A stretch of 64,000 nucleotides of DNA. Source: Streptomyces sp. NBC_01304. Lineage in GTDB: Bacteria; Actinomycetota; Actinomycetes; Streptomycetales; Streptomycetaceae. The stretch lies in the NCBI RefSeq assembly GCF_035975855.1, contig NZ_CP109055.1, forward strand, positions 682,001 to 746,000. The letters are read 5' to 3'. The translations under genes and the position numbers were made by a program. Positions 1 through 35,007 of the stretch are shown here, piece after piece (the first letter of the stretch is position 1; each line of letters opens with the position of its first letter). The notes beneath the pieces are model-generated. The model saw nothing but the letters and a program-made list of their open reading frames with translations. It had not been told where the DNA came from and made no database searches.

Positions 1-218
1 TCGACGACCTCGCCGGAGATCAGCATGGCCATGCTCCACACGCCCATCAAAACGGGGGCGAGGAGTGCGTAGGCGAGGAGTTCGGGCCGGTCGTTGTGCC
101 GGATCAGCAGCAGGAAGACGGCGGCGAGCAGCGGGGTGCGCACCAGGTCGATGAGGTAGTCGCGGTGGGTCAGGACGAGACGGCCCTGGAACTTTCCGGC
201 CGCGAGGAGCAGACTCAC
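1..218 (-). CDS. ABC-2 type transporter permease, N-terminal part (cut by window edge)
   Basis: Only the first 72 codons are in the window. The protein begins VSLLLAAGKFQGRLVLTHRD and then has a hydrophobic stretch (LLAAVFLLLIRH), a second one around LLAPVLMGVWSMAML, and runs off the edge. Its GTG start overlaps the stop of the ATPase gene by four bases (GTGA), which is typical of translationally coupled ABC subunits. By family it would form the membrane channel for the ATPase next door. The substrate is unknown; the setting next to a peptide gene suggests export of a small product, which is inference. Confidence 0.75.
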   Translation of the reverse strand, partial: MSLLLAAGKFQGRLVLTHRDYLIDLVRTPLLAAVFLLLIRHNDRPELLAYALLAPVLMGVWSMAMLISGEVV

Positions 219-1207
219 CGATTCACCACGCTGCGCGTCTCGTTGCGGTGGACGAGGCGGAGGTAGACCTCTTCGAGGCCGGGCAGTTCGGTACGGACCT
301 CGGTGACGCCCGCCTCGACCACGAAGGCCAGCACCCGGCCCACCGCCTCCTTGTCTTCGACGGAGACGATCGCCGCTCCGTCGTCGGCCTGTTCGACGCC
401 GAGCACCCCGGGCAGTTGCCCTACCCGGTCTGTCAGCTCCGGCTCGGCGCGTACGCGGATGCGTTCCTGCTGGGAGACCAGACGGGCCAGCGTCTTCGGC
501 GCCTCCGCGGCGACGACCCGGCCGTGGTTAATCATCGTGACGCGGTCGCAGAGGAGTTCCGCCTCGGCCAGGTCGTGCGTGGCGAGCAGGATCGTGCGGC
601 CCTCGCTCGCCAAGCGCGTGATCAGCTCCCGCAGTTGGCGAGCGGCCAGCGGGTCGAGGCCGTTGGTGGGCTCGTCGAGCAGCAGGATCCGCGGGTCCCC
701 GATGATCCCGCGGGCCAGGTGGAGGCGCTGGCGCATGCCCACGGAGTACGTTTCCACCCGGTCGTCGGCGCGCTCGGCCAGACCGAGCTCGTCGAGGAGC
801 GCCGCACTGCGCGCACGTCCCGCCTTGGCGGACATGCCGTACAAGGCGGCCCAGTAGCCCAGATTCTGACGTGCCGTCAGCCGTGGGTAGAGGCCGCGTT
901 CACCGCCGAAGACGATGCCCAGCAAGGGGCGGATGCGCCGGTGGTCGACCGCCAGGTCATGGCCGAGGACGCGGCCCGTTCCCGACGTCGGCAGCAGCAC
1001 CGTGGAGAGGATCTTCATCAGGGTGCTCTTGCCTGCCCCGTTCGGGCCGAGCAGCCCGTGCACCTCGCCCTGCTCCACCTCCATCGTGACGTCGTCCAGC
1101 GCGACGATCGGGGCGCCGCGTCGCGCACGGTACTCCCGCCGCAACCGGCTTGTCGCGATCGCGAGTTCGCCGCGCCCCGCACCCGCCGCACCGCCGGTGT
1201 CGCCCAT
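215..1207 (-). CDS. ABC transporter ATP-binding protein (drug/peptide exporter type)
   Basis: The 330-residue protein has every ABC ATPase motif: Walker A GPNGAGKST, the signature YSVGMRQR, Walker B ILLLDEPTNGLD and the switch His in LLATHDL. A C-terminal extension of about 90 residues matches the DrrA/CcmA-type exporters that pair with ABC-2 permeases. The start is ATG at 1207 (MGDTGG); an upstream reading of the same frame runs antisense-like through the preceding gene and looks spurious. It follows the nucleotidyltransferase gene by 43 bases and overlaps the permease gene, so the three form one leftward operon with the 16-codon peptide gene. Substrate unknown. Confidence 0.9.
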   Translation of the reverse strand: MGDTGGAAGAGRGELAIATSRLRREYRARRGAPIVALDDVTMEVEQGEVHGLLGPNGAGKSTLMKILSTVLLPTSGTGRVLGHDLAVDHRRIRPLLGIVFGGERGLYPRLTARQNLGYWAALYGMSAKAGRARSAALLDELGLAERADDRVETYSVGMRQRLHLARGIIGDPRILLLDEPTNGLDPLAARQLRELITRLASEGRTILLATHDLAEAELLCDRVTMINHGRVVAAEAPKTLARLVSQQERIRVRAEPELTDRVGQLPGVLGVEQADDGAAIVSVEDKEAVGRVLAFVVEAGVTEVRTELPGLEEVYLRLVHRNETRSVVNR

Positions 1208-1250
1208 CAATCGCCTCCCACATCGGCCGTCAGGCACGGCAGCGGTTCCC

Positions 1251-2543
1251 TCACGCGACGCCCTCCGCCGACACCTCGTCCAGCCACTCCTGCCGGGCGG
1301 CGCCGGACACCAGCAGGAAGGAGCCCAGCGGCGTACGGGCGACCAGGTGGGTGCCCACGTCGTCGAGTCGTAGCCCGTCGGCGGATACGCCGTCGAGTCG
1401 TAGCCCGTCGGCGGGTACACCGTCGAGGGGCACGCCGAACAGCGGCACGCCCCGTCGCAGCAGCAGTCGCGCACCGATCCGGCGGTGCACGAGGTCGGAG
1501 GCCGCGTCCGCGAGACGGCCGCCCTCGCCTTCGACCCCGGACTGCGCGACGAACGCGGCCACACGCGCCGGGCTGCTCCAACGGACCGCGGTGCGCACCG
1601 CCCGCGTCAGCCGGGCACGCCCCGCCGCGATCCGGGTGCGCGGCAGCCCGGCCACCGGCGGCCCTCCCAGTCGGCCCGTCCCGCGCATCGCCGCCCGCCA
1701 TTCCGGCCAGAGGCCGGTCCTGTCGAGATCGTCCCTCAGTTGACGCAGACCGTCGTCGTCGAGGTGGCGCAGCAGGAGTGCCATGTCGAGGAAGTCCCGC
1801 GAGCGAAAGGGCCGTTCCCACCGCTCCGCCACCAGGGCGAGCGCGCAGGCGGCCGGCACGGAGAACCCCGGGCGGGCCAGCTGCCAGGCCGGCCCTCGGA
1901 TGTCGGTCACGATCTCCGCCGTGGCCAGCCCGACCGCGTAGGGATCGGGGGACCCCTCGGGAGCGGGGCTGCGGAACTCCGCGCCCAGGTACAGGGGGGT
2001 GCCTTGCCCGCCCCGAGCGGGTCCGACGGTCAGGGCCGCCAACTCCCAGCCGGTTTCGGCCAGTCGGCGGGCGCAGGCCCACAGGTCCCCGGGATCGTGG
2101 CAGATGACGTCGAGGTCGCCGGCCGCACGGAGCACCCCCGGCGGGTAGAGGGCGGCGATCGTCATGCCTTTGAGGAGGTAGGCGTCGGGCGCCACGTCCT
2201 GGAGCTCCGCCCAGACATCGCGGTAGTGGTCGATGCGTTCCCGGTTCTGGACCAGTTCGGTCTGCGCCGCCCCGGTGAGCCGATCGCCCCTTGCCGCCCA
2301 CAGGCTCAGCAGGGTCGCGGCGAGCTTGTGGCGGCCTTCGCGGGCCGTCCGCAGCACGTCCTCCCGGGGAGTGGCGGCATCCGCGCCGAGCAGGGCGAGC
2401 ACCGTCGCGACGCAGACCTCGGCCCCGGCGGTCCTCCCGGTCGAGGCATCACCCGACACCGGTTTCGGACGTGCGAAAGGCAGTGGACGCGACCAGGACC
2501 GCCGGGACGAACGGAACAGCCCGAGGCCGATTCCTGATCGCAT
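1251..2543 (-). CDS. nucleotidyltransferase-family protein (NTP_transf_5-like)
   Basis: This 430-aa protein resembles the NTP_transf_5 (PF14907) nucleotidyltransferase family. Residues 145-175 carry the typical core: LLKGM, then RAAGDLDVICHDP, whose DLD supplies metal-binding acidic residues. A VxRWxxPF-like segment follows (ALVAERWERPF). Homologues occur beside some lasso-peptide and other RiPP genes, where they are thought to transfer a nucleotide or phosphosugar to the product; that role here is inference. The ATG start lies 12 bases after the stop of the 16-codon peptide gene. Near the C-terminus is an imperfect tandem repeat (DGLRLDGVSA-type ten-residue units, about 1355-1435), unusual for the family and possibly a linker expansion. 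Confidence 0.7.
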   Translation of the reverse strand: MRSGIGLGLFRSSRRSWSRPLPFARPKPVSGDASTGRTAGAEVCVATVLALLGADAATPREDVLRTAREGRHKLAATLLSLWAARGDRLTGAAQTELVQNRERIDHYRDVWAELQDVAPDAYLLKGMTIAALYPPGVLRAAGDLDVICHDPGDLWACARRLAETGWELAALTVGPARGGQGTPLYLGAEFRSPAPEGSPDPYAVGLATAEIVTDIRGPAWQLARPGFSVPAACALALVAERWERPFRSRDFLDMALLLRHLDDDGLRQLRDDLDRTGLWPEWRAAMRGTGRLGGPPVAGLPRTRIAAGRARLTRAVRTAVRWSSPARVAAFVAQSGVEGEGGRLADAASDLVHRRIGARLLLRRGVPLFGVPLDGVPADGLRLDGVSADGLRLDDVGTHLVARTPLGSFLLVSGAARQEWLDEVSAEGVA

Positions 2544-2555
2544 CCTCGTCGTCGG

Positions 2556-2606
2556 TTACTTGCCCGGCTTCGGACGGACGACGACCTTCTTGAAGCTCAC
2601 ACTCAT
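2556..2606 (-). CDS. 16-aa peptide gene (MSVSFKKVVVRPKPGK)
   Basis: The frame encodes MSVSFKKVVVRPKPGK and stops with TAA. A near-perfect Shine-Dalgarno AAGGAGGG sits five to six bases before the ATG, the strongest in this region, so translation is likely. It is the first gene of the leftward operon, 12 bases before the nucleotidyltransferase. The peptide is highly basic (K/R at six positions) with no acidic residue, and ends in a Pro/Gly-rich tail. It could be a very short precursor for a modified peptide exported by the adjacent ABC system, or a leader peptide that couples or attenuates translation. No homologue is recognised. Confidence 0.55.
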   Translation of the reverse strand: MSVSFKKVVVRPKPGK

Positions 2607-2756
2607 GGAACCCTCCTTGATGTGTTGGGTCATGGAACGTAGCCTCAGCGTATGGTCTCGATAGGTCCATGACAACACGCCAACTGGGCCCGCACCCACG
2701 TGACTTGCCGCGCCCGGCACGGGGATCACAGGTGGACGCGTGCACGCCGGAGGAAC
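2607..2756. promoter_or_regulatory. divergent promoter region
   Basis: These 150 bases separate the leftward peptide/nucleotidyltransferase/ABC operon from the rightward NDK-like operon, so both promoters must lie here. Both flanking genes have good ribosome binding sites (GGAGGAAC before 2757 and AAGGAGGG before 2606). No confident -35/-10 pair was identified. Confidence 0.55.
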
Positions 2757-3659
2757 ATGGCTGTTCACAGCTGGTTGAAACCCCCCTGCACCCACGACCC
2801 CGTACGGCGCACCACTTACCCCGACGACGTCTACTTCCGCGAGATGGCCGTCGTACTGGACCGCCGGGACCCGGCTGAGACGGACCGGGCACTGCTGCAC
2901 TCCACGTTCGTCATGTTCAAGCCGGACGCGGTGGTCGGACGCCGCGTCGAACCGGCGCTCGCGTTCCTGGCGGGCCGCGGGTTCGAGCCGCTGGGCGCCC
3001 TGGCCGTCCGGGTCGACGCGCGGGTCTGCCGCGAGCTGTGGCGCTACCAGATCAACGCGGCGCCGCTGGCCGTCATCCGGGCCGTGGACATGATCCTCGA
3101 GTCCGGACCCCCCTGCCTCTTCGTGGCGCTGCGGGACACCTGGGGCCCGGAACGCACCGGGACGACCGCGGCCCAGCGGCTGGCCGCATTGAAGGGGTCC
3201 TCCAAGAACCGCGCGGAACAAGCGGATTCGCTGCGCGGCGCGCTCGGCTGCGAGCTGATGTGCCTCAACTTCCTGCACTCCCCCGACGACCCCGCCGACC
3301 TGATCCGCGAGGTGGGAGTCCTGCTGCCCGGGCGGCGCGAGGAGGCCCTGACCATGCTGGCGGGCGAGGTGTCGTCACCGCGTGCCGCCGAACCGGCGGC
3401 CATGGCGCGCAGGCTCTACGCCGCCCATCCACCGCATCCTTTGACCCCGGCCGCACCCATCGGCCCACGCCGTCAACCCGTCGACTCCACGGCGCTGTTG
3501 ACCCAGGTGGCGGAACTCGCGGCGGACGACCACGGGCTCCCCCTCTGGGACCGTATCGTCATCGCCGCACAGCTCGTGGAAGGCCTCCCCTCCGAAGGGC
3601 GCCCCCTGATCGGAGCGCCGCCCGGGACAGAAAGGCACCGATGGCAGACGACGTCCTGA
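2757..3659 (+). CDS. nucleoside-diphosphate-kinase-like protein with extra C-terminal domain
   Basis: Residues about 45-190 of this 300-aa protein follow the NDP kinase fold. FVMFKPDAVVGRRVEP corresponds to the N-terminal KPD motif and CELMCLNFLHSPDDPAD to the active-site segment, with His174 in the position of the phosphorylated histidine. True NDKs are about 140-150 aa; this one has a 45-residue N-terminal extension and about 110 unassigned C-terminal residues. It may transfer a phosphate to or from a non-nucleotide intermediate. ATG at 2757 is chosen because GGAGGAAC precedes it. The 3' end overlaps the phosphoesterase gene by 19 bases, so the two are coupled. Confidence 0.7.
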   Translation: MAVHSWLKPPCTHDPVRRTTYPDDVYFREMAVVLDRRDPAETDRALLHSTFVMFKPDAVVGRRVEPALAFLAGRGFEPLGALAVRVDARVCRELWRYQINAAPLAVIRAVDMILESGPPCLFVALRDTWGPERTGTTAAQRLAALKGSSKNRAEQADSLRGALGCELMCLNFLHSPDDPADLIREVGVLLPGRREEALTMLAGEVSSPRAAEPAAMARRLYAAHPPHPLTPAAPIGPRRQPVDSTALLTQVAELAADDHGLPLWDRIVIAAQLVEGLPSEGRPLIGAPPGTERHRWQTTS

Positions 3660-4450
3660 TGTACGGACCGGCCGGCTGGGAAGGACCGCCGCAGCGGTAC
3701 GGTCCGGCGGCGCGGGTAGCCGTGCTGTCCGACCTGCACGCCAACATCCCGGCGCTCGACGCTGTACTCGCCGAACCGGACGTGGCCGCGGCCGACCTGG
3801 TGGTCCTCTGCGGCGACCTGACCTGGGGTCCGCAGCCGCAGGAGACCTACGAGCGGATCGCCGCCCTGGGCGAACGCGTCCTGTGCGTGCGCGGCAACGG
3901 CGACCGCTTCGCCTCCTGGCTCGCCGCCACCGCGGACGCCACTGCCACCGCTCGCCAGTCGTGGATCACCGCACAGCACTCCCCCGAGGCCATCGCGTTC
4001 CTCAACCGGGTTCCCTTCGGCGTCGTCGTCGAGATCGACGGGTTGGGGCCGGTGCACTTCTGTCACGGTTCTCCGCGCAGCGACCACGAGTTGGTGACGC
4101 CGGGGACACCGGCCGAGCGGTTCGCGGAACTGTCCGCCTCCCTCGACGTGGGGGTTCTGGTCACCGGACACTCCCACCTCCAGTTCGCCCGCGAAGTGGG
4201 AGGCCTGCGCAGCGTCAACCCCGGGAGCGTCGGCCTCCCGTACCACACGGGCCAACCAGGCACCGCCCACTGGGCGTTGCTCGGCCCCGACGTCCAGCTG
4301 AGAACCACGCATTACGACGTCGCGGACGCCGTGGCCCGCGCGCATCGGGCCGGCGATCCGGGGGCGGAGCAGTACGCGGAGACGTTGCTGAGCCCGCCGG
4401 ATCCCGCGTCGGTGGTCGTGGACGCGGAGACGCGGATCTTCGTCAACTGA
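3641..4450 (+). CDS. calcineurin-like metallophosphoesterase
   Basis: The 269-aa protein shows the ordered metal motifs of the YfcE/MPP class: SDLHAN (Asp31, His33), CGDLTWGP, RGNGDR in place of GNHD, FCHGSP, and GHSHLQF followed by NPGSVGLP. These enzymes hydrolyse phosphomono- or diesters with two metal ions. The substrate is unknown, but pairing with an NDP-kinase-like gene and a second phosphohydrolase downstream suggests that phosphorylated or nucleotidylated intermediates are processed. The start codon lies inside the end of the NDK-like gene. No signal peptide is seen, so it is probably cytoplasmic. Confidence 0.88.
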   Translation: MADDVLMYGPAGWEGPPQRYGPAARVAVLSDLHANIPALDAVLAEPDVAAADLVVLCGDLTWGPQPQETYERIAALGERVLCVRGNGDRFASWLAATADATATARQSWITAQHSPEAIAFLNRVPFGVVVEIDGLGPVHFCHGSPRSDHELVTPGTPAERFAELSASLDVGVLVTGHSHLQFAREVGGLRSVNPGSVGLPYHTGQPGTAHWALLGPDVQLRTTHYDVADAVARAHRAGDPGAEQYAETLLSPPDPASVVVDAETRIFVN

Positions 4451-4583
4451 CGCCCACCGCACGGGACATGGGCAGTTTCGGAGCACGGTGTTGACAGCCG
4501 AAGTCACGCCATGTTGACCTGTTCACGCAAAATCGCAGGTCGTTTGACGCGTTTCCCCAGCTCCGTTCAAGCAGGAGGAATCC
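4451..4583 (+). promoter_or_regulatory. leader and probable promoter of the peptide-precursor operon
   Basis: This 133-base gap precedes the 57-aa peptide gene. It contains TTGAC three times (4491-4495, extended to TTGACA, 4514-4518 and 4544-4548), locally more AT-rich sequence (CAAAATC), and a good ribosome binding site (GGAGGA) before the ATG. TTGACA could serve as a -35 box, but no clear -10 lies at the usual distance. The triple motif might instead bind a regulator. Confidence 0.4.
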
Positions 4584-4757
4584 ATGCAAACCGCCCCGCC
4601 CAGCACCACCAAAACCACGGCCGAGGCCGTGAGCACGTCGACTCCGGCCCCCGTCATGCTCCTGCCACGCCTGGTAGAGCGCATGATCACGGACCGTCAG
4701 GCCGCGCATGTGGCCAAGTTCCGCACCACCTGCACTGACTGCGTGCCGAACTTCTGA
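4584..4757 (+). CDS. 57-aa peptide, candidate RiPP precursor (core TTCTDCVPNF)
   Basis: The reading frame encodes 57 residues behind GCAGGAGGA. The N-terminal half is Ser/Thr/Ala/Pro-rich (TKTTAEAVSTSTPAPV). A charged amphipathic stretch follows (LPRLVERMITDRQAAHVAKF), and the peptide ends in TTCTDCVPNF with two cysteines, three threonines and an Asp. Length, leader-like middle and short polar Cys-containing tail match a ribosomal precursor peptide. It is the first gene of a run of closely spaced or overlapping enzymes that includes an ATP-dependent PP-loop protein, a methyltransferase-aminotransferase and a peptidase. No YcaO, LanM/LanKC, lasso or radical-SAM enzyme is nearby, so the modification class cannot be named. 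It is too short to resemble an enzyme. Confidence 0.65.
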   Translation: MQTAPPSTTKTTAEAVSTSTPAPVMLLPRLVERMITDRQAAHVAKFRTTCTDCVPNF

Positions 4758-4807
4758 GCACAAAGTCGCGTGTCGGCGGACGAGCGACAGCGTCCGCCGA
4801 CCTGCGC

Positions 4808-5884
4808 GTGATACCCGAAGTCGTCGAACGGTGCCTGCGCACCGCTTCCCGTGGACTGTGTGTCCTGGCCGTGGACGGCTTGTCGCACGACGTGGCTGCT
4901 TCCTCGTTCGCCCACGCACAGACCCACGCCTTGCGTTCCACCTTCCCGAGCACGTCGACCACCGCCTGGCTGACCGCCGTCACCGGCATGGATCCCGCCG
5001 AGCACGGCGCCATCGGCATGGTCTACCGGGCACCCGGAGCCGACAGCGTCACCCACCTCGTCACCGGGCAGGCCTACGGGTTCGGCGCCGCTCCCCCGAC
5101 CGACGGCGCGCTGCTGCACGGCGGTCCGACGCTCTTCGACCGCGCGGTGGCCTCGGGGCGGCCCGCGTACGTGGTCGGCGCCGAGCTCGAGGGGCTCTCC
5201 GGTGCCTGGGTGACCGCCCTGCTGCAGGGCGCGCACGTCGTCCCGTCAACGGCCCCCGACCAGGCCGGCATCGATCCCGTCAAGGTCGTCCGGCGCGTCG
5301 TGCGCGACGTCGAGGCCGTCCTGGCGATGCCCACCGACGTACCCCCGTTGATCTGGGCGTACGTGAACCTCGACGACCACATCCACCAGGCCGGCTACGA
5401 CGCCGCCCTGCGCGAGTCGCTGCGCCTGCTCGACACCGCGGCCGACCGCTGGGCCGACGCCGGCTGGAGCGTCCTGGCCCACGCCGACCACGGCCAGGTG
5501 CCGGTGAGTCCGCGAGCGGACCTCGTCGAGGCATGGGCCCGCCTCGACACTCCCGCGCACTGCCGGATGCCGGCCGGCGGCGCCGGCCGCGTCCGCTGGC
5601 TGTATCCCCTGGCGGGAAAGGAGGAGGCCGTGGCCCGTTCGCTGCGTCACGCGCTGGGCGAGCACGCCCTCGTCCTGACCCCCGACGACCTGGACGGACG
5701 CGGGCTCCTGGCGGCGACCCCGGTGGTCCGCGACCGCATCGGCGCCGTCGTGGCCCTGGCCACGACCCCCCAATTCCCCGTGCCCGACGCCACCGTGGCC
5801 TGGGAACACGGATCGATCTCCGACGGCGAGACGCTCGTACCACTCGCCGCCTGGAACCCCCCGCTCGCCACAGTCCTGCCCTGA
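4808..5884 (+). CDS. alkaline-phosphatase-superfamily phosphodiesterase/nucleotide pyrophosphatase
   Basis: This 358-aa protein belongs to the type I phosphodiesterase family (PF01663-like). It has LAVDGLSHD (first metal Asp), STFPSTSTTAWL with the probable nucleophile Thr49, TGMDPAEHGAIG, VNLDDHIHQAGYD and HADHGQV, in the order expected for the two-zinc site. No signal peptide is present, unlike secreted phosphatases, so it probably acts in the cytosol on a pathway intermediate such as a nucleotide adduct. GTG at 4808 is the start, 50 bases after the precursor gene. It ends 36 bases before the PP-loop gene, within the same operon. Confidence 0.85.
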   Translation: MIPEVVERCLRTASRGLCVLAVDGLSHDVAASSFAHAQTHALRSTFPSTSTTAWLTAVTGMDPAEHGAIGMVYRAPGADSVTHLVTGQAYGFGAAPPTDGALLHGGPTLFDRAVASGRPAYVVGAELEGLSGAWVTALLQGAHVVPSTAPDQAGIDPVKVVRRVVRDVEAVLAMPTDVPPLIWAYVNLDDHIHQAGYDAALRESLRLLDTAADRWADAGWSVLAHADHGQVPVSPRADLVEAWARLDTPAHCRMPAGGAGRVRWLYPLAGKEEAVARSLRHALGEHALVLTPDDLDGRGLLAATPVVRDRIGAVVALATTPQFPVPDATVAWEHGSISDGETLVPLAAWNPPLATVLP

Positions 5885-5920
5885 CCGACGGATCGCTCGT
5901 CACGACACCTAGGAGAGCCC

Positions 5921-7141
5921 GTGAGCACGGTCGTGTTCCGCAACAAGACAGGTGGTTCGGAGACGTTGCACGCGAGACCGGGACAGAGCCTGCTCGACGT
6001 GCTGCGCGCGCACGGCATCCCGGCCAACGCCGTGCTCGCCCACCGCAACGGCACGATCGTGCCCGAGGCGACCTGCGTCGTCGGACCCGACGACGTGATC
6101 GAGGTCCGCCAGGTACGCCACTACGACCTCGACGTGCTGCGCCGCCCCAAGGAGCAGGTGTACGCCGCTCCGGACCCGGTCTACACCAAGAGCGTCCTCT
6201 TCGACCACGGCGGCACCCTGGAACGGCGCACCGAGCAGTTCACGGCGGAGACGTTCGTGAGCTATGTCGAGGAGACCTTCCTGCAGAGCATCACCGCGGG
6301 AGCCACCATGCGGGCCGGCGACCGCGTCGTCATCGGCCTCTCCGGCGGCCGGGACAGCGTCGCGTACCTCAAACTCCTCGAGCGCACCCGCGGCCGGTGG
6401 CCCGAGTCCGACATCACCGCCGTGACCATCACCGGACTGCCCGACTGGGACGAGCCGGCGACCTTCCAGACCGCCCTGGACGCCTGCGCGGGACTGGGCG
6501 TGGACCACGTGATCGTCACCGCGGACGACGTCGCCGAACTGTTCCAGCTGCGCGAGTCCTTCGTCGACACCATGAACCGTGTCGTCGCCGGCGAGCACCG
6601 CAACATGAACATGGTGATCGGGCACCAAGTCCTGCGCCGCATGCTCGAACAGGAGGCGGAGCGCCGGGGCGCCTCCGTCGTCGCGTTCGGCTTCAACGCC
6701 GACGACCTGGTCGCCAGCATGGTCACCTGGTTCACCACCGGCTACCGGATGGGCGGCATACCGGTCAGGGAACTGGGCTCCCTTCGGTACGTCTTCCCGC
6801 TCTACCGCATCACCAAGAAGGAACTGACCCTGTACCTGGAGCTCATCGCACCCGAGCTCAACCGGCAGGGCGCACCGGGCCGGTTCACCACCGGCTCGGA
6901 CGAACGCTCACTCGCCTACGCGACGGCCGACCACCTCTACGATCTGTGGCCCGGCATCGACTACTACGTCTTCAACGCCTTCGAGAACGTGCAGCGCACG
7001 CTGCTGCCGCTGGTCGACGACGTGTGCCGGGTGTGCGGCGGACGCTACGTGCTGCAGGAGGGCGTGCCCAACCCGGCGGCACTGTGCGACGTGTGCGGAT
7101 TCCTGCACCGGCAGGAGGCGCTGCGGGCGGACGCCGTATGA
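5921..7141 (+). CDS. TGS/ThiS-like domain fused to PP-loop ATP pyrophosphatase with C-terminal zinc ribbon
   Basis: Residues 1-70 form a beta-grasp domain of ThiS/TGS type, with no free Gly-Gly tail. Residues 130-330 form an adenine-nucleotide alpha-hydrolase domain with the PP-loop SGGRDS (141-146) and a FGFNADDL segment in place of the GHNLDD of TtcA/TtuA. Four cysteines at 369, 372, 389 and 392 (CRVC, CDVC) look like a zinc ribbon. TtcA and TtuA thiolate tRNA using an Fe-S cluster held by extra cysteines; those mid-domain cysteines are missing here. The enzyme may therefore activate a carboxylate or amide by adenylation rather than thiolate tRNA. GTG start follows AGGAGAG. The stop overlaps the next start (ATGA). 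Confidence 0.8.
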   Translation: MSTVVFRNKTGGSETLHARPGQSLLDVLRAHGIPANAVLAHRNGTIVPEATCVVGPDDVIEVRQVRHYDLDVLRRPKEQVYAAPDPVYTKSVLFDHGGTLERRTEQFTAETFVSYVEETFLQSITAGATMRAGDRVVIGLSGGRDSVAYLKLLERTRGRWPESDITAVTITGLPDWDEPATFQTALDACAGLGVDHVIVTADDVAELFQLRESFVDTMNRVVAGEHRNMNMVIGHQVLRRMLEQEAERRGASVVAFGFNADDLVASMVTWFTTGYRMGGIPVRELGSLRYVFPLYRITKKELTLYLELIAPELNRQGAPGRFTTGSDERSLAYATADHLYDLWPGIDYYVFNAFENVQRTLLPLVDDVCRVCGGRYVLQEGVPNPAALCDVCGFLHRQEALRADAV

Positions 7142-8946
7142 GCGGTGCTCAGGACCGCACCGGTGGCCCCTGGTACGAGCGGTTCTTCGGCCCGGAGTTC
7201 TGGGCCGTGGCCGCACACGAGTACACGGCCGAGCGCACCGCCGCGGAAGCCGAGTACCTCGCCGCCGTCCTGGAGGCCTCGGCCCCGGGACGGCGCGTCC
7301 TCGACCTGGGCTGCGGCACCGGACGCCATGCGATCGCGCTGGCGCGGCGCGGGTTCGAGGTCACGGGCGTCGACGTCGGGGCCTGGGCGCTGAAGGAGGC
7401 CGAGGCCGCCGCCAGTGCCTCGGGCGTACCGGTGCAGTGGCAGCACCAAGATCTCCTGCGGGAACTGCCCTGGTCCCTGGGCGTGTTCGACGCGATCGTG
7501 TGCGTGCAGTCCTTCGGCTGGGGCAGCGACGACCAGCAGGTGCGCCTCCTGCAGGAGGCCCGCCGGAGTCTCGTCCCGGGCGGCCTGCTGATCCTGGACC
7601 ACTCCAACGTGCTCTGCATCGCCGGGCAGTACGTCCCCGAGGCCACCTTCCAGGTCGAGGGTCTGCGGGCGGACTTCCGCCGCGCCTATCGCATGGTTCC
7701 CGGCCGCAGTACCGGTGAGATCGAGGTACAGCGGGGCGACGCGGAGCCGGTGACCATCCACGACGACGTACGGATGTACCAGCCCGCCGAGGTGCGCGCA
7801 CTACTGACCCGCGCGGGGTTCGCCGTGGAACGCGTCGACACCGACTTCCTCGTGGGCCGCGAACCGGTCACGACGTCGCGGTACGTGCAGTTCGTCGCGC
7901 GCAGTCCACGACGTCCGGCGGGGGCGATCTCGTCGTGGGAGCTGCCGCAAGGCCGGCCCGAGGCGCTGGATCTGCGCTGGTCCCCGGACGAGATCGAGTG
8001 CGTCGCACCGGCGGTCGACGCGGCGTTCCGCGACGTGTACGAGGGCGGCTCCATCGCCGACCTGGCGCGCGACTACCCCGTAATGGACCCCTACGCGGCC
8101 GACCGGTCCGCGCCCGTCCTGTCCGAGCACTTCGGTGTCGACCTCTCGCCGAACATGGTGACGGCCGGGACGGGCGCCACCGGACTGCTGCACGCGTGCG
8201 CGGCACTGGCGGCGCCCGGGCCGGTGCTGCACCTCGCCGGCGCACACCCGGACCTGCCCCGCTGGGCCGCGCTGCTCGGCGCCGAGGCGGTCGTGACCCG
8301 GCTCGCCGCGCTGGCCGCCGACCTCGACCGGCACGCACCGTCGGTCCTCGTCCTGGACCGCCCCACGGCCTTGGGCACCATGCCGGACAGCTCGCTCCTG
8401 GACGAGGTCGTCGAGGCAGCTCGCGCGCACGGCACGATCGTGGTCCTCGACGAGGCGTACGCCGTCTATGCCGGGCCCGCGGCAAGCTTCGCGCCTGCCG
8501 TCACCGAGCACGACAACCTCGTCGTCGTACGCAGCATGTCCAAGGGCTACTGCTGCGGAGGCCTCAGGATCGGGTTCGCCCTCGCGGCGCCGGCCCTGAC
8601 CCGTCGGCTCAGGGAGTTCGCCCCGCCGCTCGGCGCGAACAGCGCGGGCCTCGCCGTGGCGCTCCGTCTGCTGGGCCAGGGCGACGTGTTCGCCGGTCTG
8701 AGGGCCAGGATCGCCGAGGTGAAGCCGATGGTCGCGGCGACGCTGCGGCGCAGCGGCCTGGAGGTGACCGAGGGGGCCGACTGCCTGCCGTGGGTGACGG
8801 CGCGCGGAGGGCCGGCGGCCAAGGACGTGCTGGCGAAGCACGGGCTGCGGGCCAAGGAGATCGACCCCGCCGTCCTGAAGATCGCCGTGCCGCTCTCGGC
8901 GGCCCGACTGGCCTCCTTCCGGGCCGCGTTCGCCCATGACGGATGA
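7138..8946 (+). CDS. SAM methyltransferase-class I/II aminotransferase fusion
   Basis: The 602-aa protein joins two enzymes. Residues 1-255 are a class I methyltransferase, with motif I VLDLGCGTGRHA (from Val54) and the DAIVCVQSF and LVPGGLLILD segments. Residues about 270-602 are a HisC-like PLP aminotransferase: TAGTGATGLLHA, VLDEAYAVYAG (Asp438, which would contact the pyridine nitrogen) and MSKGYCCGGLRIG (Lys469, which would form the Schiff base). The two active sites suggest linked methylation and transamination of the same intermediate. The gene overlaps the PP-loop gene by four bases and the peptidase gene by eleven. Such a fusion is not one I recognise from a named pathway. Confidence 0.88.
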   Translation: MSGAQDRTGGPWYERFFGPEFWAVAAHEYTAERTAAEAEYLAAVLEASAPGRRVLDLGCGTGRHAIALARRGFEVTGVDVGAWALKEAEAAASASGVPVQWQHQDLLRELPWSLGVFDAIVCVQSFGWGSDDQQVRLLQEARRSLVPGGLLILDHSNVLCIAGQYVPEATFQVEGLRADFRRAYRMVPGRSTGEIEVQRGDAEPVTIHDDVRMYQPAEVRALLTRAGFAVERVDTDFLVGREPVTTSRYVQFVARSPRRPAGAISSWELPQGRPEALDLRWSPDEIECVAPAVDAAFRDVYEGGSIADLARDYPVMDPYAADRSAPVLSEHFGVDLSPNMVTAGTGATGLLHACAALAAPGPVLHLAGAHPDLPRWAALLGAEAVVTRLAALAADLDRHAPSVLVLDRPTALGTMPDSSLLDEVVEAARAHGTIVVLDEAYAVYAGPAASFAPAVTEHDNLVVVRSMSKGYCCGGLRIGFALAAPALTRRLREFAPPLGANSAGLAVALRLLGQGDVFAGLRARIAEVKPMVAATLRRSGLEVTEGADCLPWVTARGGPAAKDVLAKHGLRAKEIDPAVLKIAVPLSAARLASFRAAFAHDG

Positions 8947-10798
8947 TCTGGCCGGCCTCGTCCGCCACGTCCATGACGGCATCGATCCCGACGAGGCGAT
9001 GCGCCGGGTCGCCCGGCTCGTCGAGTGGGACCGCCACCAGGGCTCGGCGGGCATCGCCGCCGCGGCCGACTTCGTGGCGGGCGAGGCCGAACGCGTGGGC
9101 CTGGCCGACGTCGAGGTGCTGAGCCTGCCGGCCGACGGACGCACCGCGTGGTGGACGTTCACCGCGCCCAGCCCGTGGACCGCACGAGCGGCCCACCTGT
9201 CCGTGGGCGCGGGCCCACGGCTGGTCGACTACGCCGCGCAGCCCTACGCCCTGGCCGTCAACTCCACGGCCACGGACGCCGAGTTGTCCCTCGCACACCT
9301 GCAGGACGACGCATGGCCGCCGGGCGCGGTGGTCCTCGTCCCATCGGCGGGCGACCTCGACGGGCGGCTGCTCGCCCGCCTGCGCGACAGGCGGGCCGGC
9401 GGGTTCTGCGTGACGGCCCGCCCGGACCTCCCCGACCACTCCGGGCGGCTCGAACTCCCCGCCGACTCCGGGCTGTTCGCATTCAGCGTGCTCCCGGCCC
9501 AGCTGGACGAGCTGCACCGCACATACCGCCTGGGCGGGCGCGTACGGGTCGTGGTCGACGTCGACACCACCCCGGCGCGGATGCCGGTGGTGGTCGCCCG
9601 TACACCGACGCGCCCGGCCACGGGGCGCGGCGCCTCGTCCGCGCGGGACGCCTGCCTGATCGCCGCCCACCTCTGCCACCCCGCGCCCAGCGCCAACGAC
9701 AACGCCTCCGGTGTCGCGGCGGCCCTCGCCGCGGGGCGGGCGCTCGCCGAGCTCCCGCTGCGGCGCCCCGTCCGCTTCGTCTGGGGGCCCGAGTTCGTGG
9801 GCCTGGCCGCGTACGTCCACCGGTCCGCCGAGGAGGGCAGGCCGCTGCCGACGATGGCGGTCAACCTCGACATGGCGGGTGAGGACCAGCGGCGCTGCGG
9901 CGGCCCGCTGATCGTCGAGCGGAGCCCCGAATACCTCCCGCACTTCGCCAACGCCGTGGTCGAGGCCTGCGTGCGGGCGCTGCCGCCCGCCGCGCGCTCC
10001 TACAGCGGAGCGGTGGACTGCGATGTCTGGGCCTGGCGCGCGACCCCGTTCGTCGGCGCCTCCGACCACGCGATCCTGGCCGACCGCGCGATCGGGTGCC
10101 CCGCCGTCCAACTGGGCCACTGGCCGGACCGGTTCAACCACTCGGGCGCCGACACCCTGGACAAGGTCGACCCTCAGGAGCTGCGCAGATCCGCCGCGAT
10201 CGCCGCGTCCGCCGCGGCCGTCGTGGCGACCGCGGGCCCCCGGGACGCCGACCGCATCGCCCGCCACCTGACCAGGTGGACGGCCCACCGGATGACCGCC
10301 TGCCTGCCCCCGAGCACGGACCCGCTGGCCACCGAACGACTCACCAGGCACTGGCAGTTCGGCCGCGACGCCCTGCCGACGCTGCGGCAGCTCGGCGCGG
10401 GCGAGGACGTTCTCGATCGGCAGACACGTCTCCTCGCCGACCTGCACCGGACCCTCACGGCCGCCTGTGACCGTCCGCCCGTCCCACCGCCGCGGGGTGG
10501 TCCGGTGCTGCGGCGGACGTGGCCCGGCCCGTTCAACCTCCGGGCCCTCATGGGAGCCGTCGATGAGGCCGACCGCGCGTGGCTGCAGCGCCGACTGACG
10601 GTGGACCGCGGCGGGTTCTACGCCACGGCGATGGCCCTGGCGCAGAGCATCGACGGCGTCTCGGACACCGCCCGGGTGATCCGCACCGCTCAACTCGACA
10701 GCGGGCTCGAGTGGGAGCGCGACGTCGGGGAGCGGTTCCTGACGGCGCTGGCGGGGGCGGGCTGGGTGGAAGAGACGGAACAGAAGGGCATGGGATGA
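8936..10798 (+). CDS. M28-family zinc aminopeptidase of DUF4910 type
   Basis: Candidate zinc ligands are in the expected order in this 620-aa protein: AAHLCHP (His245/His248), NDNASG (Asp255), WGPEFVG (Glu286), NLDMAGED (Asp312) and RFNHSGADT (His402). The Pro-Glu in place of the usual Glu-Glu, and the NHSGADTLDK motif, match the DUF4910/aminopeptidase-like branch rather than classical secreted M28 enzymes. The C-terminal 170 residues probably form a winged-helix-like tail seen in that branch. No signal peptide is present. In this operon it could remove the leader of the 57-aa peptide stepwise or trim the product, which is inference. It overlaps both neighbours (11 and 4 bases). Confidence 0.8.
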   Translation: MTDDLAGLVRHVHDGIDPDEAMRRVARLVEWDRHQGSAGIAAAADFVAGEAERVGLADVEVLSLPADGRTAWWTFTAPSPWTARAAHLSVGAGPRLVDYAAQPYALAVNSTATDAELSLAHLQDDAWPPGAVVLVPSAGDLDGRLLARLRDRRAGGFCVTARPDLPDHSGRLELPADSGLFAFSVLPAQLDELHRTYRLGGRVRVVVDVDTTPARMPVVVARTPTRPATGRGASSARDACLIAAHLCHPAPSANDNASGVAAALAAGRALAELPLRRPVRFVWGPEFVGLAAYVHRSAEEGRPLPTMAVNLDMAGEDQRRCGGPLIVERSPEYLPHFANAVVEACVRALPPAARSYSGAVDCDVWAWRATPFVGASDHAILADRAIGCPAVQLGHWPDRFNHSGADTLDKVDPQELRRSAAIAASAAAVVATAGPRDADRIARHLTRWTAHRMTACLPPSTDPLATERLTRHWQFGRDALPTLRQLGAGEDVLDRQTRLLADLHRTLTAACDRPPVPPPRGGPVLRRTWPGPFNLRALMGAVDEADRAWLQRRLTVDRGGFYATAMALAQSIDGVSDTARVIRTAQLDSGLEWERDVGERFLTALAGAGWVEETEQKGMG

Positions 10799-11844
10799 AC
10801 GGGCCGTACGTCACGCTCGCCGACTCCGTCGACGACGTCGACGCCACCGCGTGGGAGCGAGTCGCCGCCGATGCCGGCGCTCCCGTCCACTACTCCCCCG
10901 CCTACCTGCGGGCGTACGAGACAAGCCCGTTGAGCCCGTACGTCTCGGTCCACTACCTCTCGGCCGTCGACGCCGGCCGCACCGTGGGCCTGCTGCCGTG
11001 CTACCTCCAGAAGCAGGGCGACCCCTACGGCTTCCTGCGCGCCGTCGGCGTCCCGGACACGGACGGTCCGGCGCTCCTCGGCCACAACTGGTACTGCTAC
11101 GACACCCGGATCCCGGTGCGGGCGAGCTCCCCCGAGCGGCGCGACCGGATCCTCGACACGGTCCTCGACGCCCTGGTGGACCTGGCCGCCTCCGCGGGCG
11201 CACCGGTCGCGGGGCTGGTGAGCGTGGCGGAAGGCGACCCGGTCCTCGCCGTGGCGCGTCGCAAGGGATGGCGGGTGGCGCCCATCGTGACGCGCTTCCA
11301 ACTCCCCCTGCGGAACCTCGCCCAGCACGACCCGTACGACATGTACGACGCCTACCTCGCGACCCTGGGCGCCCGGACCCGGCGCACCATCCGCCAGTAC
11401 ACGCGACGCGCGGCCGAGGCCGGCGTCACCACCGCGGTCGAGGCCCCCCACCCGCGCTTCCTGCGGACGGTGTGCGAGCTGACCCGCCGCACCGCGGCCA
11501 AGCACGGCAGCGCCGACATGTACCCAGAGAGCGCCTTCATCGACTTCGTGATGGCCCTGGGCGAGCGGGCCCGCGTGGTCAGGGTCGACCAGGAGGACCG
11601 CACCCTGGCCGCCGCGGTGGTCCTCCTGGACGAGGAACGCCTGCACATGTGGGTGGGCGGGACCAGCCACGCGACCGTCGACAGTTTCAGCCCCAACTAC
11701 CTGCTGTGGGCCGCGGAGATCCGGCACGCCATCGACGCGGGCAAGCTGTGGGTGGAGGGCGGCCGCGCCAACCAGCCCATGAAGAGCAGACACGGGATGA
11801 CGCCCCTGCCTCTCTACGCCTGCATCGCCCCGCCCTCCTCCTGA
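10795..11844 (+). CDS. BioF2/FemAB-like GNAT-fold acyltransferase
   Basis: The 349-aa protein looks like an Acetyltransf_6 (BioF2-like) or FemAB-type acyltransferase. It has the N-terminal SPAYLRAYE and LLPCYLQK segments, a basic YLATLGARTRRTIRQYTRRA stretch, and the late YLLWAAEIRHAIDAGKLWVEGGR segment followed by MKSRHGM. Members transfer acyl or aminoacyl groups from CoA or tRNA to amines. It is the last gene of the operon, overlapping the peptidase stop (ATGA). A role in capping or extending the peptide product is plausible but inferred. Confidence 0.75.
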   Translation: MNGPYVTLADSVDDVDATAWERVAADAGAPVHYSPAYLRAYETSPLSPYVSVHYLSAVDAGRTVGLLPCYLQKQGDPYGFLRAVGVPDTDGPALLGHNWYCYDTRIPVRASSPERRDRILDTVLDALVDLAASAGAPVAGLVSVAEGDPVLAVARRKGWRVAPIVTRFQLPLRNLAQHDPYDMYDAYLATLGARTRRTIRQYTRRAAEAGVTTAVEAPHPRFLRTVCELTRRTAAKHGSADMYPESAFIDFVMALGERARVVRVDQEDRTLAAAVVLLDEERLHMWVGGTSHATVDSFSPNYLLWAAEIRHAIDAGKLWVEGGRANQPMKSRHGMTPLPLYACIAPPSS

Positions 11845-12322: not shown

Positions 12323-12541
12323 GCGGGGCCGGCAGCGAAGGCCTCGGACATCGACGCCCGGCGCGATGATCGAGGCACGGGCGCGAGTGCCCCGGGAAGG
12401 TGGCCGGATACCGCGGCCAAGTGCAGCCCCGAGATGGCTGGTTCGGGACGCGGCGGCACACCTGACGGCCCCCCTTGCCCGCTCTCGGCCCGGCCAGTAG
12501 GTTCGCGCCTCGACCTCTTCCGCCATGCCCCGGAGCCGCCC

Positions 12542-15421
<2,880 letters not shown>

Positions 15422-15665
15422 CCCCGGACGAGCCTGCGTCAAGCCTGCCGGACACCTATCCGTCCGGCGCTGCGCCTGCCCGCCCAAATACGTACCCCTA
15501 CCTATGGCCGTACGGATTGTTCCGCCCTGCCGTCCTCTCCCAAGGTGATCTCCGTTGCCACCTGGCCTGATCCGGCTCCCCCCGCCGGGCCGCGCGGCAA
15601 CCACCTGCGTCACACGCTGCCCCCGACGCGGTGTGCAGCGGATCTTCAACCGCAAGGAGCAGAGG

Positions 15666-17441
15666 ATGAGAGCAGGCAACAGACGGTTCGGCGCGCTGTG
15701 TCTGGGCGCCGTCACCACGACGGTGGTCGCCCTGTCGGCCGCCGGCACCGCCCAGGCCGCCCCGGCCCCCCAAGGAAACATCCAGGGTGCGGACCGGGCC
15801 GGCGCGATAGCCGGCCAGTACATCGTCGCGTTCGACGGGCAGCCGTCGGTGGCCGCCTCCGCCCGCGCCGATGTGCGCTCCCGCGCGGACGAGCTGGTAC
15901 GCGGCCACGGCGGGCAGGTACGTCAGGTGTACGCGGCCGCCTTCCGTGGCTTCGCCCTCAAGGCCACCGAGCAGCAGGCCCGGGAGATCGCGGCCGCCCC
16001 CGGCATCCGCTACGTCCAGGCCGACCAGGTCTTCAAGGCCGTCGGCAGCCAGCCGAACCCGCCGTCCTGGGGCATCGACCGCATCGACGGGCAGAAGGAC
16101 AGCACGTACAACTACCCGAACACCGGTGAGGGAGTCACGGCGTACATCGTCGACACCGGCCTGCACACCCAGCACTCCAACTTCGAAGGCAGGGCCAGTT
16201 CCGGCCACGACTTCATCGACAACGACAACGACTCCAGCGACTGCCACGGACACGGCACCCACGTCGCCGGCACCGTCGGCAGCAAGGACTACGGCGTCGC
16301 CAAGGCCGTCAAGCTGGTCGGCGTGCGCGTCCTCAACTGCCAGGGTTCGGGCAGCACTTCGCAGATCGTCGCCGGCATGGACTGGGTCACCAAGAACGCC
16401 GCCAAGCCCGCCGTCGCCAACATGAGCCTGGGCGGCGACAGCGACCAGGCCATGGACGACGCCGTCAAGGGCACCATCGACTCCGGGGTCCAGGTCGCCG
16501 TCGCGGCCGGCAACGACAGCAAGGACGCCTGCAGCACCAGCCCCGCCCGGCTGCCCGCGGCGATCACGCTGGGCTCCACGGACAGCAGTGACGCCCGCTC
16601 CAGCTTCTCCAACTACGGTTCGTGCCTGGACCTGTTCGCCCCCGGCAGCAGCATCGTCTCCACCAAGAACGGTGGCGGTACGGCGACGATGAGCGGCACC
16701 TCCATGGCCACCCCGCACACGGCCGGCGCCGCCGCCCTGTATCTGTCCGGGCACAAGGACGCCACCCCGCAGCAGGTCCGCGACGCCCTCGTGAACAACG
16801 CCCAGTCCGGTGTCGTCACCGGTCCGGGCAGCGGCTCCCCCAACAAGTTCCTGGACGTCTCCAAGCTGGGCGGCCCCACCAACCCCGGTGAGCCGACGGC
16901 CGACTTCACCGCCCAGTGTTCGAGCACGAACACCGACTGCGCCTTCGACGGCTCGGCCTCCAAGGACCCCGACGGCTCCATCGCCTCGTACGCCTGGGAC
17001 TTCGGTGACGGAGCGAGCGGCAAGGGCGACAAGCCCGCGCACAGCTACGCCAAGGCGGGAACGTACAGCGTCAAGCTGACCGTGACCGACAACGACGGGA
17101 AGACCGGCACCGTCACCAAGCAGGTGACGGCCGGGGCGGTCGAGCCGCCCACTGGTGAGGCACCGGACGCCTCGTTCACGGTGTCCTGCTGGTACGCGTC
17201 CTGCGACTTCGACGCTTCGGCCTCCAGTGACCCGGACAACGACATCGCGGGCTACGGCTGGAAGTTCGGCGACGGTCAGACCGCCACCGGCGCCACCGCC
17301 AAGCACGCCTACCCGGCAGGTCAGCGCACCTACACGGCGGAACTGACGGTCAGCGACAAGGCGGGCCACACCGACACCGCTTCGAAGCAGATCACCTGCT
17401 ACGACTTCGGCGCCGGCAACGCCTTCTGCTTCGCCGGCTGA
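15666..17441 (+). CDS. secreted S8 subtilisin-like protease with two PKD domains
   Basis: The 591-aa precursor starts with a Sec signal peptide (RRFG, then a hydrophobic core ending TAQAAPAP). An I9 propeptide follows (YIVAFDGQP to IRYVQADQ). The subtilase domain has the triad Asp163 (YIVDTGL), His196 (HGHGTHVAG) and Ser346 (GTSMATPH). From about residue 415 come two PKD domains (FDGSASKDPDGSI, WDFGDG; FDASASSDPDND, WKFGDG). It should be an extracellular serine endopeptidase whose PKD domains aid substrate binding. The ribosome binding site is AAGGAG. Two strong hairpins follow the stop codon. Confidence 0.95.
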   Translation: MRAGNRRFGALCLGAVTTTVVALSAAGTAQAAPAPQGNIQGADRAGAIAGQYIVAFDGQPSVAASARADVRSRADELVRGHGGQVRQVYAAAFRGFALKATEQQAREIAAAPGIRYVQADQVFKAVGSQPNPPSWGIDRIDGQKDSTYNYPNTGEGVTAYIVDTGLHTQHSNFEGRASSGHDFIDNDNDSSDCHGHGTHVAGTVGSKDYGVAKAVKLVGVRVLNCQGSGSTSQIVAGMDWVTKNAAKPAVANMSLGGDSDQAMDDAVKGTIDSGVQVAVAAGNDSKDACSTSPARLPAAITLGSTDSSDARSSFSNYGSCLDLFAPGSSIVSTKNGGGTATMSGTSMATPHTAGAAALYLSGHKDATPQQVRDALVNNAQSGVVTGPGSGSPNKFLDVSKLGGPTNPGEPTADFTAQCSSTNTDCAFDGSASKDPDGSIASYAWDFGDGASGKGDKPAHSYAKAGTYSVKLTVTDNDGKTGTVTKQVTAGAVEPPTGEAPDASFTVSCWYASCDFDASASSDPDNDIAGYGWKFGDGQTATGATAKHAYPAGQRTYTAELTVSDKAGHTDTASKQITCYDFGAGNAFCFAG

Positions 17442-33486: not shown

Positions 33487-33735
33487 ATGTCTGCGATCGA
33501 CAGCGCGATCCACTCCGTACTGACCGGAAAGTTCGAGGTCGCACAGGACCACATCCGGCCCGAGGCCACACTGGAAAGCCTCGACCTCGACTCGCTCGCC
33601 CTGGCCGAACTCGCCCTGGCCCTGCAGGAGGAGCTGGGCGTGGAGGTGCACGAGCACGAGGCGACGAAGAGCACCACGGTCGGCGAACTCACCGCCACCC
33701 TGGCCGCCAAGCGCACCGCGGCAGGGGTGCTGTGA
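33487..33735 (+). CDS. acyl carrier protein
   Basis: The 82-aa acidic protein has the phosphopantetheine site LDLDSLALAEL with Ser36 and the rest of the four-helix fold (LQEELGVEVHEHEATKSTTVGEL). It carries acyl intermediates for the surrounding ketosynthases. AAAGGGC precedes the ATG. Its stop codon overlaps the GTG start of the FabF-type gene. Confidence 0.92.
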   Translation: MSAIDSAIHSVLTGKFEVAQDHIRPEATLESLDLDSLALAELALALQEELGVEVHEHEATKSTTVGELTATLAAKRTAAGVL

Positions 33736-34961: not shown

Positions 34962-35007
34962 CCGCGACCACGCCGTCCCCGCCCCCCTTCAGGAAGTCAC
35001 CTCCCCT

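Follow-up and report, generated by a model that had tools for sequence, protein, structure and literature searches.

What is made by a bacterial gene cluster in which a very small peptide is accompanied by a PP-loop enzyme? The question is raised by the left part of a 64,000-nucleotide stretch of DNA from Streptomyces sp. NBC_01304 (positions 682001-746000 of the first contig of an 11 Mb genome in four contigs), which is called the window below. Here a gene for a 57-amino-acid precursor-like peptide (4584-4757, + strand) and a gene for a PP-loop enzyme (5921-7141, +) belong to a cluster spanning approximately positions 1-11844. The initial annotation had suggested an undescribed ribosomal peptide pathway, and this suggestion gained support from the co-conservation of peptide and enzyme and from the peptidases, exporters and tailoring enzymes co-occurring with them. 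Judged from the genes alone, enzyme and peptide probably define an undescribed class similar to the ribosomally synthesized and post-translationally modified peptides (RiPPs); we put the probability of this reading at about 0.65. To our knowledge, PP-loop ATPases are not known as primary peptide-modifying enzymes.

The expected association of the two genes was borne out: each of the 33 PP-loop loci examined, from actinomycete genomes and four plasmids, also contained a small peptide gene. Fourteen of the 16 genomes with a match in the window's family, three loci from the genus search, 12 from the family of Sphaerisporangium album and the four plasmids made up this set; two weak PP-loop matches (L020 and L021, E 2.9e-5 and 6e-4, frames of 843-849 amino acids) and one weak match in a phage record (E 4e-6) stand outside it. 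Peptide and enzyme genes were at most 175 bases apart in 18 of the 33 loci and 1-7 kb apart in 14, all of the window's type, and in L067, where the enzyme frame is split, 667 bases separated the peptide gene from the longer of the two halves. Conservation of a precursor gene together with a putative modifying enzyme is a RiPP trait.

The enzyme family is patchily distributed, unlike a housekeeping enzyme. In the window's family 16 of 394 genomes gave a PP-loop match at E ≤ 1e-3 (five of these with at least 86% identity), and in its genus 5 of 392 at E ≤ 1e-15. The phylum and class samples yielded 2 of 396 and 2 of 296 genomes, which in each sample were the window's genome and G048. Twelve matches in 11 of 230 genomes (E ≤ 1e-40) came from the family of Sphaerisporangium album. 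A protein search in which 8,000 candidates were scored gave at least 219 relatives and, among the matches listed, many were from metagenome sources. When 72,556 plasmid records were searched with enzymes of types A, D and C (the types are described below), the same four records were found, from Geobacillus, Pantoea, Xenorhabdus and Paenarthrobacter, and all four carry the peptide gene; type E found three of them. Some sources name relatives of the enzyme TilS/MesJ or ThiS, which would suit a tRNA-modifying PP-loop enzyme lying by chance near a small frame. Such an accidental neighbourhood is scarcely credible, being contradicted both by the co-occurrence in every locus, across three phyla, and by the patchy distribution within the genus.

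The window's peptide belongs to type A, represented by 15 loci with a closer relative of the PP-loop enzyme (at least 56% identity): the window, L002-L005, L050, L059 (the same place as L006) and L042-L049. The initial annotation had made its reading depend on conservation of the 57-amino-acid frame beside the enzymes, a test set beforehand, and the peptide gene was present in all 15. Fourteen of them also contain the phosphodiesterase, methyltransferase-pyridoxal phosphate (PLP) enzyme, M28 peptidase, FemAB-like, nucleotidyltransferase and nucleoside diphosphate kinase (NDK)-like genes; only L049, a further locus of the L045 genome, departs from this, with the peptide, PP-loop, nucleotidyltransferase and FemAB-like genes seen in the 14 kb available. 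Because gene order and strands differ between the window's family, presumably the Streptomycetaceae, and the Sphaerisporangium family, which we take to be the Streptosporangiaceae, this co-conservation is not merely inherited synteny.

The type A peptide has a variable N-terminus and a nearly fixed tail of ten residues, TTCTDCVPN followed by F, Y, W, M or L. A protein search returned 43 homologues, the window's included, in which FRTTCTDCVPN was invariant and was followed by F (22), W (9), Y (6), M (4) or L (2); L049 encodes a more distant variant, TNCSDCVPNL. The ratio of non-synonymous to synonymous differences (pN/pS) was approximately 0.06 for the last 13 codons versus 0.55 for the preceding 20, as calculated from pooled, hence not independent, pairwise counts over 14 sequences, without L049, whose slice contains no stop codon. 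A profile of the peptide had one match per genome in five relatives. The gene thus has a second trait of RiPPs, a short encoded precursor with a variable leader-like part and a selected, conserved core-like tail.

Peptides of the other types likewise carry a short motif before a ten-residue tail. In types A (KFR-TTCTDCVPNF), B (RFR-TCCADPRAS[KR]) and Geo (Geobacillus plasmid pGS18, RFR-TCATDPITSW) the motif is [KR]FR. In types C-F it is [GR][LVI]E-x-hydrophobic, as in type C (GLEAI-TGGSCETGAQ, with the version GIETI-CGASCETGAQ on the Pantoea agglomerans plasmid), type D (GLESV-SCCNSIIATG), type E (GVEFV-LCASALTAQV, found also on the Paenarthrobacter plasmid) and type F (L066 and L067, RVEEM-LSVPALTAHI). 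Xenorhabdus plasmid II encodes GEGDI-CGGSTRVVSG. Type C peptides occur in Klebsiella, Serratia fonticola and Dickeya poaceiphila as well; eight of the nine found, the eight inspected, end in GASCETGAQ. Since a tail scan over all types presupposed a length of ten and was therefore circular, length and background were examined separately. For types C-F and Xenorhabdus, 14 peptides in all, a loose form of the motif stood 10 residues from the end in every case, no other distance between 5 and 16 giving a match, and the strict form fitted 13 of them. Among 12,950 frame ends in all the available loci the strict motif occurred at distance 10 in 24, all of them these peptides, 11 in duplicate loci. 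Similarly, the pattern FRT-x3-D-x5-end matched 35 of 14,624 frames, all of which were A, B or Geobacillus peptides or duplicates.

Cysteine is present in 31 of the 33 tails, and this would favour a cyclisation in which the PP-loop enzyme activates an amide, giving a thiazoline, or the C-terminus, giving a thiolactone, for attack by the tail thiol. Activation of carbonyls by PP-loop enzymes, as described in PMC5372745, points the same way. Even so, such a cyclisation seems unlikely, because the cysteine position in the tail is not constant between types, varying from 1 to 6, and because type F has serine or alanine where type E has cysteine. A universal role of cysteine was dropped, the two type F tails having none. 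In both L066 and L067 the type E pattern (ALTA) is retained around these replacements; in L067, from a draft genome, the enzyme is split over two frames, and therefore only L066 is a clean cysteine-free exception.

The PP-loop enzyme has a predicted TtuA/NcsA fold over residues 78-406, an intact PP-loop (SGGRDS) and a fused N-terminal ubiquitin-like (ThiS-like) domain; most fold matches span residues 80-388. Zn-ribbon-like cysteine pairs are found at the C-terminus in types A, B and Geo. Sequence identity between types drops to 15%. Compared with the TtuA/NcsA thiolases, motif and fold are there and the iron-sulfur ligands are missing: the segments CSFCG and PCPYSC of NcsA, presumably the ones providing the cysteines that bind the cluster, align with cysteine-free residues, and the aligned enzymes have no invariant cysteine besides the four C-terminal ones. 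Because of this absence, sulfur transfer onto the peptide, yielding a thioamide, was rejected as first choice. The fold and the ThiS-like domain would also suit a peptide that is no precursor but serves the enzyme as a regulatory subunit or carries sulfur in the manner of TtuB/ThiS. Carriers of this kind end in Gly-Gly, however, and such an end was found in none of the 17 distinct tails; with the iron-sulfur site absent and peptidases and tailoring enzymes around the peptide, a carrier or subunit role is highly improbable.

If the peptide is a RiPP-like precursor, a course of events can be proposed by analogy with TtuA and TtuB, the ubiquitin-like partner whose tail TtuA takes up. The PP-loop enzyme would dock the short motif, draw the ten-residue tail into its active site and adenylate a carbonyl of the tail, which would then be captured by a nucleophile. 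As the site of activation the C-terminal carboxylate is tentatively preferred, since the distance to the C-terminus stays constant and not every tail has a cysteine. Activation of an acidic side chain was rejected, there being no acidic residue in the type D, type E and Xenorhabdus tails. The later steps are speculative. Tailoring of the product in type A might fall to the PLP/methyltransferase fusion and the FemAB-like enzyme, the leader might be removed by M28 (together with M16 in the Sphaerisporangium family), and ABC or major facilitator superfamily (MFS) proteins might export it. For the nucleotidyltransferase, NDK-like protein and phosphodiesterase, the adding and removing of phosphoryl or nucleotidyl groups is a conceivable role, perhaps in self-protection. 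Nucleotidylated or phosphorylated intermediates, envisaged in the initial annotation, are made possible, and only that, by the conserved active sites of these three proteins.

Family scans and coordinates confirmed that every gene named in the initial annotation is present at the locus. Its interval, 2556-11844, stops short on the left: the nucleotidyltransferase, the ABC ATPase and the permease lie beyond it. These three are on the - strand: the 3' part of an ABC-2 type permease (1-218; PF01061, 5.7e-14; the remainder is beyond the window's left edge; L058:9451-10218), the ABC transporter ATPase (215-1180; PF00005, 5.3e-31; 80-83% relatives in L002, L003, L004 and L050) and an NTP_transf_5 nucleotidyltransferase (1251-2543; PF14907, 9.5e-10; D143 and D145 in 15 of 15 aligned). 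The genes that follow, from 2757 on, are on the + strand. A 300-residue NDK-like protein (2757-3659; PF00334, 1.9e-6; His174 in 20 of 20 aligned) is followed by a YfcE-type calcineurin-like phosphoesterase (3641-4450; PF12850, 8e-20; TIGR00040, 68.4 bits with a cut-off of 56.25; family scan started at 3650, not 3641), which was found in five loci (L058, that is the window, L002, L003, L004 and L050) and was not detected in L005 or in the Sphaerisporangium-family loci. After the peptide gene comes a member of the type I phosphodiesterase/nucleotide pyrophosphatase family (4808-5884; PF01663, 5.7e-12; D23, T49, D189, H193, D227, H228 and H334 in 18 of 18). Downstream of the PP-loop gene a fusion protein (7138-8946) consists of an S-adenosylmethionine (SAM) methyltransferase domain (7138-7932; PF13649, 7e-23) and a CobD/HisC-like PLP class I/II domain (7933-8946; PF00155, 1.3e-20; K204 in 18 of 18); the latter scored 107.6 bits against TIGR01140, under the cut-off of 290.55, and its best PDB sequence match was 4r2n (1.4e-13). 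The last two genes encode an M28/DUF4910 metallopeptidase (8936-10798; PF04389, 6.8e-12; PF16254, 3.8e-9; H248 and D255 in 19 of 19) and a GNAT/FemAB-like acyl- or aminoacyltransferase (10795-11844; PF13480, 3.2e-14; PF04339, 4.1e-11). A search of solved structures by sequence gave no match for the phosphodiesterase or the FemAB-like protein. From 4584 on the genes are close or overlapping, as the initial annotation had described, with gaps of 50 and 36 bases and then overlaps of 4, 11 and 4 bases. As active-site residues are kept in the aligned sequences, the partner proteins are probably enzymes, not relics.

The block from the ABC genes to the FemAB-like gene is kept in L002-L004 and L050, whereas a 146-amino-acid frame, a LuxR-type gene and a subtilase gene, the three that come after 11844, were without a match in five named relatives (E ≤ 1e-3), and the cluster borders were drawn from this difference. 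The LuxR-type gene (12434-15421) encodes a large regulator with an AAA domain, and the subtilase gene after it (15660-17441) a protein with PKD domains. Further along (33732-36003) two frames look ketosynthase-type by sequence and are perhaps part of a small fatty-acid or polyketide locus.

Among the relatives, types A, B (L052 and L053) and C (L056 and Pantoea) have phosphodiesterase, PLP enzyme and M28 in common. The Sphaerisporangium-family type A loci also have M16 and MFS genes, M16 not being present in L049. The type C clusters between them contain an enolase or phosphoenolpyruvate-binding protein, ClpX, Ppx/GppA, PhyH, an NDK-like or kinase-like protein, an amidase and an FAD protein, and L055 has a TldD-like peptidase. 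L054 (type D) has a methyltransferase, a nucleotidyltransferase, acyl-CoA dehydrogenases and ABC-2. In L051 (5396-10540) the type B peptide and PP-loop enzyme stand beside three radical-SAM enzymes, two of them with SPASM, and an M20 peptidase and an ATP-grasp protein follow further on, so that a different tailoring set is attached to the same pair.

The principal rival to a RiPP-like product is a scaffold peptide of the pearlin kind, a carrier on which tail residues or a joined small molecule are processed and then cut off by M28 or the amidase, the peptide itself not being the product. Within a type the tails hardly vary, even where it spans Streptomycetaceae and Enterobacterales (SCETGAQ), the tails of all 43 type A homologues differ at the last residue only, L049 being the more distant variant, and enzymes of small-molecule type (PLP, phosphodiesterase, amidase, LLM oxidoreductase) are present. 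On the other side, the nine window proteins scanned contain no match to a LanB-type peptide aminoacyl-tRNA ligase (PEARL), and the exporters, M16 and the TldD-like peptidase of the relatives fit a peptide product as well. On balance we regard a scaffold as rather unlikely. Several observations nevertheless count against a RiPP-like class. The near invariance of the type A tail fits a scaffold equally well, and many RiPP cores diversify. No Pfam match to a PqqD-like RiPP recognition element was obtained with the nine window proteins; divergent elements can escape Pfam, and the element is common in RiPPs, not required. The motif patterns were drawn up post hoc, and the background loci had been chosen for their PP-loop gene, which limits that control; the Xenorhabdus peptide fits the loose motif only, and the A/B/Geo motif differs from that of types C-F. 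Neither phosphodiesterase, PLP enzyme nor M28 was found in the stretches available for L051 (type B) and L055 (type C), and only M28 in L064. Finally, the enolase, ClpX, NDK-like protein, Ppx/GppA and amidase of type C look odd in a RiPP cluster; the enolase, ClpX, NDK-like and Ppx/GppA-related genes of L055 and L056 could be self-resistance copies or recruited enzymes.

A second puzzle is posed by mini-open reading frames (mini-ORFs). In the window a frame on the - strand (2606-2556), to which the initial annotation makes no reference, encodes a basic peptide of 16 amino acids, MSVSFKKVVVRPKPGK, and ends 12 bases before the nucleotidyltransferase gene; it has a good ribosome-binding-like site. 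Counterparts occupy the same place in all five other Streptomycetaceae loci, with VRPKPGK in L002 and L004, VRPKPNKK in L005 and KVRIRTK in L003 and L050. Eight of the nine Sphaerisporangium-family type A loci, all except L049, contain related mini-ORFs between M16 and NDK. These are separate frames of 16-20 amino acids, MDR-x5-RRP[KR]-basic, with a variable middle; one begins with MER and one with MNR, and in the rows of L047 and L048 one of five is without MDR. Up to ten such diversified genes stand in a row: 10 in L059, 8 in L042, 6 each in L043 and L044, 5 each in L047 and L048, 3 in L045 and 2 in L046. Most neighbours are 2-3 bases apart or overlap by 4, with gaps of 35-120 bases in L045, L047, L048 and L042; in L059 (5571-6181) they are 2-9 bases apart or overlap by 4. 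Comparison of the arrays gave pS 0.095 and pN 0.004 for L043 versus L044, and pS 0.122 and pN 0.016 for L047 versus L048, and with this low pN/pS the frames behave as coding. From place and basic R-P-K sequence we infer that the window mini-ORF and the MDR-type arrays are homologous. A conservation scan covering types B-E found no mini-ORFs near the relevant genes, and for types B-F a scan near the nucleotidyltransferase or NDK gave no convincing one. Second precursors, ligation partners and translation-attenuating leaders are candidate roles. It is conceivable, though improbable, that the tail is adenylated at its C-terminus by the PP-loop enzyme and that the activated peptide is joined to one or other of the basic mini-peptides which the genome encodes as a library (the 16-amino-acid one in the window, ten of the MDR type in Sphaerisporangium), giving combinatorial conjugates with one warhead.

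A RiPP-like identity, if true, would add a class defined by a PP-loop ATPase, with members in Actinomycetota, Bacillota and Enterobacterales. It would be easy to search for, as a PP-loop enzyme accompanied by a peptide whose end lies ten residues past a short motif, and it raises the question how a thiolase fold without an iron-sulfur site acts on a peptide tail. In the open-access PMC literature neither the tail and mini-ORF motifs searched nor a PP-loop RiPP was found; type F, Xenorhabdus and MDR motifs, subscription papers and preprints were outside that search.

The initial annotation had seen no YcaO, LanM, lasso or radical-SAM enzyme, and indeed the nine window proteins gave no Pfam match to YcaO, lanthipeptide, lasso or radical-SAM class enzymes; radical-SAM enzymes occur in the relative L051. 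The microcin C7 and E1-like RiPPs share with the present system the ATP-dependent activation of a peptide C-terminus, which is here a proposal, and differ in that no ThiF/E1 match was found in the same nine proteins. Daptide clusters similarly combine a methyltransferase and a PLP enzyme with a small peptide, but the window's methyltransferase reached only 47.4 bits with NF041820, whose cut-off is 175, and the window peptide does not end in Thr. Pearlins resemble the system in the small conserved peptide, the presumed C-terminal chemistry and the metallopeptidase; instead of a LanB-like PEARL, the window has an ATP-dependent PP-loop enzyme. TilS, the tRNA-Ile lysidine synthetase, differs in its neighbourhood, the enzyme described here having a presumed peptide substrate and a fused ubiquitin-like domain. 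The TtuA/NcsA tRNA 2-thiolases (TtuA-TtuB complex, 5gha) have in common with it the fold, the PP-loop, the Zn-ribbon-like cysteine pairs (in types A, B and Geo) and a ubiquitin-like partner, which is fused in the present enzyme. In contrast to these thiolases, it lacks the iron-sulfur cysteines, neither its fused domain nor the peptide has a Gly-Gly end, and its partner is a small peptide encoded in clusters of biosynthetic type.

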